Positions 51,283 to 53,141 of a stretch of DNA of 64,000 nt are shown here, piece after piece; within the stretch, counting starts at the first letter, position 1, and each line of letters opens with the position of its first letter. The position numbers were made by a program, and so were the translations under genes. Below the pieces are notes generated by a model, which worked only from the letters and a program-made list of their open reading frames with translations, was not told the DNA's origin and did no database searches. The stretch comes from Acidobacteriota bacterium (GTDB lineage: Bacteria; Acidobacteriota; Terriglobia; Bryobacterales; Bryobacteraceae), in contig VFZY01000001.1 of NCBI GenBank assembly GCA_016870915.1, positions 1 through 64,000 of the forward strand. Reading direction: 5' to 3'.

Positions 51283-52140
51283 ATGTTTGCAATCATCGGA
51301 ATCGTAATCGTATTCGGCAGCGTCATCGGTGGCTACCTGATGGCGCACGGACACCTGGAAGTGCTGTTCCAGCCGAACGAACTGGTGGTGATCTGCGGAG
51401 CGGCTCTGGGCAGCATGCTGGTGGCGAACCCGCTGCCGATCGTGATTGGCGTGATGAAAGGGTTGATCGGCGTCTTGAAGGGAAGTCCCTACAACAAGGC
51501 GATGTACCTGGAAAACTTGAAGATGCTGAACGCCGTATTCACGCACGCCCGGAAGAACGGCCTGGTGAAGCTGGAAGCCGACGTGGATGAGCCCGACAAG
51601 AGCCAGGTGTTCTCGCAGTTTCCTAACTTCCTCAAGAATCACGCGGCGGTGGGACTGGTGTGCGACACGTTGAGAACGGCGATCAGCGGCGGCATCGGGC
51701 ACCATGAACTGGATCAGGTGATGGAGCAGGACATCGAGATCCACGCCCATGAGCAGAACCTGATCGCCACGGCGCTGAACACCACGGCCGACGCATTTCC
51801 CGGCCTTGGCATCGTCGCCGCCGTGTTGGGCGTCATCGTCACCATGGGCGCCTTGGGCGGCCCTCCCGAACAGATTGGCCATCACGTGGCGGCGGCGCTG
51901 GTAGGCACGTTCCTGGGTATTCTGCTGTGCTACGGCATTCTGGGTCCCCTGGCTTCAAACATGACCAAGATCATCGACTGCGAGAAAGAGTACCTGCTGT
52001 TTCTGCGCGCGGGCGTGATGGCGTTTGTGCGCGGCGCCGCGCCCATTCTGGCCTCTGAGATCGCGCGGCGCGCCATCCCGCACCACGAACGGCCGTCGTT
52101 CAAAGAGATGGAAGAGGCCTGCCGCGGCGGTGCCAAGTAA
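51283..52140 (+). CDS. motA: Flagellar motor stator protein MotA
   Basis: A 285-residue inner-membrane stator subunit, full length for the family. Helices: IIGIVIVFGSVIGGYLM (1-20), VVICGAALGSMLV (36-52), GIVAAVLGVIVTMG (about 175-190) and AALVGTFLGILLCYGILGPL (about 205-225). The prolines of the proton path are present in FPGLG and GILGPLASN. The cytoplasmic loop has KNHAAVGLVCDTLRTAISGGIGHHELDQVMEQDIEIHAHE. The C-terminus ends in GGAK exactly at a 15-bp tandem repeat. The next gene, which should be motB, is truncated. Confidence 0.93.
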   Translation: MFAIIGIVIVFGSVIGGYLMAHGHLEVLFQPNELVVICGAALGSMLVANPLPIVIGVMKGLIGVLKGSPYNKAMYLENLKMLNAVFTHARKNGLVKLEADVDEPDKSQVFSQFPNFLKNHAAVGLVCDTLRTAISGGIGHHELDQVMEQDIEIHAHEQNLIATALNTTADAFPGLGIVAAVLGVIVTMGALGGPPEQIGHHVAAALVGTFLGILLCYGILGPLASNMTKIIDCEKEYLLFLRAGVMAFVRGAAPILASEIARRAIPHHERPSFKEMEEACRGGAK

Positions 52141-52164
52141 GGCGGTGCCCGCTAACGCGGCGCC
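52126..52164 (+). repeat. 15-bp tandem repeat at motA end/motB deletion junction
   Basis: GGCGGTGCCAAGTAA (52126-52140) is followed by GGCGGTGCCCGCTAA (52141-52155), then CGCGGCGCC (52156-52164), a further partial unit. In motA's frame these read GGAK-stop, GGAR-stop, RGA. The repeat sits exactly where the motA stop meets the motB remnant, suggesting slippage or recombination at this point. Confidence 0.8.
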
Positions 52165-52633
52165 AGGGGAGTTCTTTCAGAGCGGCAGCCCGGACCCCAC
52201 CGGAAGTGGTGAGGAACTGCTGATCAAGATGGCCGGTGAGCTCTCCCAAATCCCAAACACGGTACTGATTGAGGGCCATACCGACTCGAAGCCATTCAAC
52301 CGCGAAGGCTATTCCAACTGGGAGCTTTCGGTGGACCGGGCCAACGCGGCGCGCCGCCTGATGATGATGTACGGCCTGCGGTCCGACCAGGTGATGCAGG
52401 TGCGCGGCTTCGCGGACCAGCGGCTGTTCACCCAGGATGACCCGGAGCATCCCTCCAACCGGCGCATATCGGTGCTGGTGCAGTATGCCGATTCGCCGCC
52501 TGGGACAAACCTCGATCCGATGACCGAGGCCGGCAAGAAGGCCGCCGGCGGCGAGGGCGGCGAGCCGGCCCCGGCAGCCGGGGCCAAGGCCGAGGAAGCC
52601 AAACCCGAGGAGAAGAAGTCCGGCGGGCACTGA
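52130..52633 (+). pseudogene. motB: motB remnant: OmpA-like domain only, no membrane anchor
   Basis: At most 167 residues from GTG 52130 (or 153 from GTG 52145). The body FFQSGSPDPTGSGEELLIKMAGELSQIPNTVLIEGHTDSKPFNREGYSNWELSVDRANAARRLMMMYGLRSDQVMQVRGFADQRL is the peptidoglycan-binding OmpA domain of MotB, complete and well conserved, ending in an Ala/Glu/Lys tail. A normal MotB has an N-terminal membrane helix with the proton-carrying Asp and a plug, about 150 residues; none is found in any frame here. No signal peptide is present either, so the product could not reach the wall. It is most likely a deletion pseudogene, unless the assembly collapsed the region. Confidence 0.75.
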
Positions 52634-52638
52634 GGGCA

Positions 52639-52644
52639 TATACT
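52639..52644 (+). promoter_or_regulatory. -10 TATACT box before coiled-coil gene
   Basis: TATACT precedes ATG 52650 by 5 nt and the second in-frame ATG (52653) by 8 nt; the spacer is GGCGG. It is another instance of the TANNNT-start geometry. If the 8-nt distance is preferred, the protein would begin at the second Met. Confidence 0.4.
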
Positions 52645-52649
52645 GGCGG

Positions 52650-53141
52650 ATGATGAAACCGCATCGAACGATCCCCGCGGCAATCCCGGCCGCCGCCATC
52701 CTGATCGCGTTCGCGGCCGGGCCATCCAAGGCGCAGCAGCCCGATCTGGCAGCCGAGATCCGGGCCCTGCGGGCATCGGTGGAAAAGCTGGCCCGTTCCC
52801 AGCAGGAGTTGGTGCTGCTGACGCGGGTCCAGATCACCGAAGCGCGTGTGGCGCCGCTGGAGGCGCAACGGTCACAATTGCTGATGCAGGAAGCGCAACT
52901 GGACCGCGAACTGGCAGCCATGCAGGGCGGCGCCGGACAGGCCTCAAGCCAGGCGGCGGCGTTGGCGGGAGCTGGGCAGGAGTTCGTGGCCACTTCTCCC
53001 GGCGCGCCGCAGATGACCTCGGAACTGAGCCGGCGGCTGGATGAGGTGCGGCGTGTGCGCCACGGACTCGATCAGCGGATTCAGACATTACGAGCGCGCA
53101 GCGCGGTGTGGGAACGGCAGATCGAAGAGTTGCAGAAGTAA
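52650..53141 (+). CDS. Secreted coiled-coil hypothetical protein
   Basis: A 163-residue protein with a signal peptide (RTIPAAIPAAAILIAFAAGPSKAQ). Two heptad-rich stretches are visible: AAEIRALRASVEKLARSQQELVLLTRVQITEARVAPLEAQRSQLLMQEAQLDRELAAM and LSRRLDEVRRVRHGLDQRIQTLRARSAVWERQIEELQK. A Gly/Ala/Gln linker (GGAGQASSQAAALAGAGQ) joins them. It would form a periplasmic rod or oligomer. No family is recognised. The three AAGATCTG copies start at its stop codon. Confidence 0.65.
   Translation: MMKPHRTIPAAIPAAAILIAFAAGPSKAQQPDLAAEIRALRASVEKLARSQQELVLLTRVQITEARVAPLEAQRSQLLMQEAQLDRELAAMQGGAGQASSQAAALAGAGQEFVATSPGAPQMTSELSRRLDEVRRVRHGLDQRIQTLRARSAVWERQIEELQK

Follow-up and report, generated by a model that had tools for sequence, protein, structure and literature searches.

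The window analysed here is a 64-kb stretch (64,000 nucleotides) of an assembly of 6.61 Mb in 367 contigs, estimated at 96.9% complete. On its forward strand lies a motA gene (51283-52140) that encodes a full-length protein of 285 residues. Both the MotA_N (PF20560) and the MotA_ExbB (PF01618) domains are matched, and the MotA1 equivalog model TIGR03818 is matched over positions 1-281 of 282 with 360.9 bits, against a cut-off of 303.8. These matches, with identity of up to 71% to MotA from other genera in the family, place the protein in the MotA1 or E. coli type.

Immediately downstream on the same strand is a short frame that we describe as a remnant of motB (52145-52633), based on alignment with 27 full-length MotB sequences and on matches to PF00691 and NF006548. 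It consists of about seven codons resembling a MotB N-terminus (MPANAAP) and an OmpA-like peptidoglycan-binding domain. A GTG at 52145, 4 nt downstream of the motA stop codon, could serve as the start; read from there, the frame is open and gives MPANAAPGEFFQSGSPDP. The offset agrees with that of the relatives, in which motB mostly starts between -4 and +18 from the motA stop; a ribosome-binding site at good spacing from this GTG was not found in the sequence.

A first-pass annotation had described the locus as full-length motA followed by only the OmpA-like half of MotB, and the profile searches bear this out. In the frame that ends at 52633, OmpA (PF00691) is the only Pfam match above cut-off (47.1 bits versus 27.2), and of the 287 positions of the E. 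coli-type MotB model NF006548, only 170-273 are covered. The same annotation had seen no membrane helix in any frame, and we likewise find no convincing one in the six frames of 52140-52640. The highest 19-residue Kyte-Doolittle mean there is 1.65, in a minus-strand frame, and no plus-strand stretch exceeds 0.80, compared with 2.04 for the MotB helix of a relative, and a profile search for MotB_plug (PF13677) gave no match in the 64-kb window. The helix with the proton-binding Asp, where relatives carry WKVAYADFVTAMMALFIVLWL, is missing from the remnant, as are the plug and linker, where the alignment shows a gap between residues ~8 and ~130. The remnant protein has neither a signal peptide nor a membrane segment to take the OmpA domain to the periplasm.

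What is left of MotB was said to be well conserved, and it is: in comparison with the relatives, 38 of 39 conserved positions of the OmpA domain are intact. Its divergence is ordinary relative to that of MotA (rank 34 of 51), and a search for relaxed constraint on this domain, again relative to the relatives, saw none. In MotA itself (51283-52137), 10 of 105 conserved positions are changed, including F125L, H155A and P161I, where a conserved position is one that is the same in at least 90% of the compared relatives. Only three sequences, all of them more divergent, exceed this number. These changes are a hint of relaxed constraint on MotA, though not a decisive one, as its terminal branch (0.26) is close to the stem of the sister clade (0.20) and is not unusually long. 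The next gene, 3' of motB at 52650-53141, encodes a product with a signal-like N-terminus and a coiled-coil-like composition; it has no significant Pfam match, and nothing in the fetched flanks of the relatives matches the gene.

In the genome set used for comparison, the genus is represented by the window's own genome only. Of 200 genomes sampled from the family, 160 carry an orthologous motA (E <= 1e-60). Among the loci retrieved, 51 relatives, nearly all from the same family and with MotA identities of 47-71%, had enough DNA 3' of motA for the locus to be classified. In every one of the 51, the gene after motA encodes a full-length MotB with a WKVAYADF-like helix motif; the window is the sole exception. 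Two other loci end at a contig edge and were left unclassified: L017 shows a MotB N-terminus before the edge, and L026 keeps only 259 bases. Because all comparable relatives are full length, a family of naturally short MotB proteins is ruled out, and the window's state is best read as a derived loss of ~370 bp. The deletion proposed in the first-pass annotation thus gains support, and its stated alternative, a short gene shared by all the relatives, is the opposite of what they carry. Scanning GTDB contigs for close relatives returned nothing but one distant Zixibacteria locus. A comparison of four flanking genes with the relatives' loci, most of which have only ~1.5 kb of flank, gave no matches, while the motA control was matched.

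The alignment also indicates where the loss would have occurred. The remnant begins MPANAAP|GEFFQSGS, and the two pieces align with the relatives on either side of a single gap. MPANAAP aligns to the start of the relatives' MotB (for example, MPDQDVAP-VIVIKKK in L009 and MSNSGQTAP-IIIVKKK in L007) and, judging from these seven residues, is probably the original N-terminus. GEFFQSGS aligns at the relatives' G-x-FF-x-SG motif, near residue 130. The Gly codon preceding FF is 389-476 nt past the motA stop in the relatives (median near 397) and 25 nt past it in the window, so about 370 bp are missing. The Glu of GEFF (52169-52171) is unusual, as the relatives mostly have M, T, V or L. Together, the alignment, the Gly-codon offset and the odd Glu put the putative junction at about 52163-52171 on the forward strand (CCA GGG GAG), as would fit an internal deletion that kept the reading frame.

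Slightly upstream, an imperfect tandem repeat of 15 bp (52126-52155, forward strand) spans the end of motA and the presumed start of motB; its copies, 52126-52140 and 52141-52155, are identical at 12 of 15 positions. The first-pass annotation had placed this repeat right at the join and considered it a plausible footprint of the deletion. The repeat does exist, but it is not at the join: since about seven MotB-N-terminus-like codons survive between motA and the join, the break at ~52163-52171 lies downstream of it. Nor is it a footprint, because recombination between short repeats leaves one copy rather than two in tandem, and two copies remain here. Neighbouring 15-mers that agree at 12 or more positions form 12 clusters in the 64-kb window; the repeat is no more than what GC-rich coding DNA yields here, and is incidental.

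It had further been suggested that motA would lack a partner unless the genome held another motB, and that the genome be searched for a second motAB. Its own MotB is indeed broken, but the cell is not stator-less: contig C45 carries a complete second pair, of MotCD type, with MotA-like and MotB-like proteins of 275 and 368 residues. The former passes the MotC model NF006583 (288.3 bits, cut-off 237); for the latter, the best model is MotD NF006541, at 224.7 bits, which is below the cut-off of 283. The pair is located at L001:562-2502 (about 10.0-11.7 kb on contig C45 of genome G000), and imperfect repeats (ARASVTGLEARTPMTGLEARAPMTGLEARASVTTLEARTP) occur in the long C-terminal tail of its MotB. 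Genes for FlhA, FliG and flagellin are also present in the genome. In the family, eight members (G008, G013, G017, G018, G019, G025, G027 and G029) have FlhA but no stator pair other than the C45 type; thus, the MotA1-type pair is dispensable in the family. In another member, G004, the MotAB and MotCD-type pairs are convergent within about 3 kb (L065, G004:C8:172041-175282), whereas the window genome has them on two different contigs.

The lost MotB N-terminus was not found elsewhere in the assembly, either by a search for PF13677, whose only match is on contig C45, or with a relative's complete MotB as the query. The latter aligned with the window only from residue 129 on, and gave a weak match along the length of the C45 gene. 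Relocation or inversion of the N-terminus to another place in the assembly is thereby ruled out.

We think it probable that this is a two-stator bacterium in which the motB of the MotAB pair has been internally deleted and is now a non-functional remnant, with the MotCD-type pair presumably powering the flagellum. Stator function requires the ion-binding Asp of the B-subunit helix and is regulated by the plug and linker (PMC9093738). A deletion of ~370 bp, compatible with the frame, would have removed codons ~8 to ~130 of motB and with them the plug, the linker and the membrane helix that carries the proton-binding Asp. The product from GTG 52145, if translated, would be a soluble OmpA-like domain that has no export signal and stays in the cytoplasm. 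Such a domain could neither enter the periplasm nor build a channel; it would leave MotA without a cognate partner and the pair non-functional, and the complete pair on C45 would be left to drive the flagellum. The missing segment, the full-length genes of the relatives, the second pair and the flagellar genes are observed directly; we infer that the deletion is real and recent, that the remnant starts at the GTG and that function is lost.

As a long-dead gene would have decayed, the intact OmpA domain leaves two options, a recent deletion or a wrong assembly. The latter is possible, if on balance rather doubtful: the true motB would be full length, with about 370 bp dropped or collapsed in an assembly that is split into 367 contigs. 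An internal drop-out would keep both ends in the correct order, the two surviving parts show little or no decay, and the short state is unique among the compared loci, all of which speaks for such an error. However, the missing segment is on no other contig, no long repeat that could trigger assembler collapse is visible at the join, and short-read assemblers seldom lose a unique internal segment cleanly. Given the complete second pair elsewhere in the genome, the short motB is most probably just a defective spare, or perhaps the product of an assembly gap.

The conserved OmpA domain, the open frame and the intact MotA frame would also fit a short MotB that still functions, as an OmpA-domain protein kept for another role or with MotA pairing with MotD of the second pair. 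We consider this very unlikely, given that the protein has neither a signal peptide nor a membrane segment for placement in the periplasm, that the GTG lacks a well-spaced ribosome-binding site and that none of the relatives has such a form; the more specific proposal of a free domain selected for a new role, or of MotA re-paired with MotD as a hybrid motor, is slightly less likely still. Least likely of all is a phase-variable or programmed rearrangement, with the N-terminal segment stored elsewhere and switched in; the clean join would suit it, but the segment is absent from the genome assembly.

If real, the deletion is a recent loss of one flagellar stator set out of two, and several other members of the family already get by on the MotCD-type set alone. 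It would then serve as a modest natural case of a redundant motor module being lost, and it leaves existing knowledge of stators unchanged.

Compared with the E. coli-type MotAB stator (TIGR03818 MotA1, NF006548 MotB), the window shares motA, the gene order and the OmpA-like peptidoglycan-binding domain, whereas about 120-125 residues of its MotB, comprising the helix, channel Asp, plug and linker, are absent. Pseudogenised flagellar genes occur, for example, in Brucella; the common trait is a motor gene lost by mutation, but in the window genome the loss concerns a redundant stator set rather than the whole flagellar system. In Pseudomonas aeruginosa, two stator sets, MotAB and MotCD, serve one motor with distinct roles (PMC12288467). 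The window genome likewise has two stator gene pairs and one flagellar gene set, with the difference that its MotAB is broken, which leaves the MotCD-type pair as the one complete set in the assembly.
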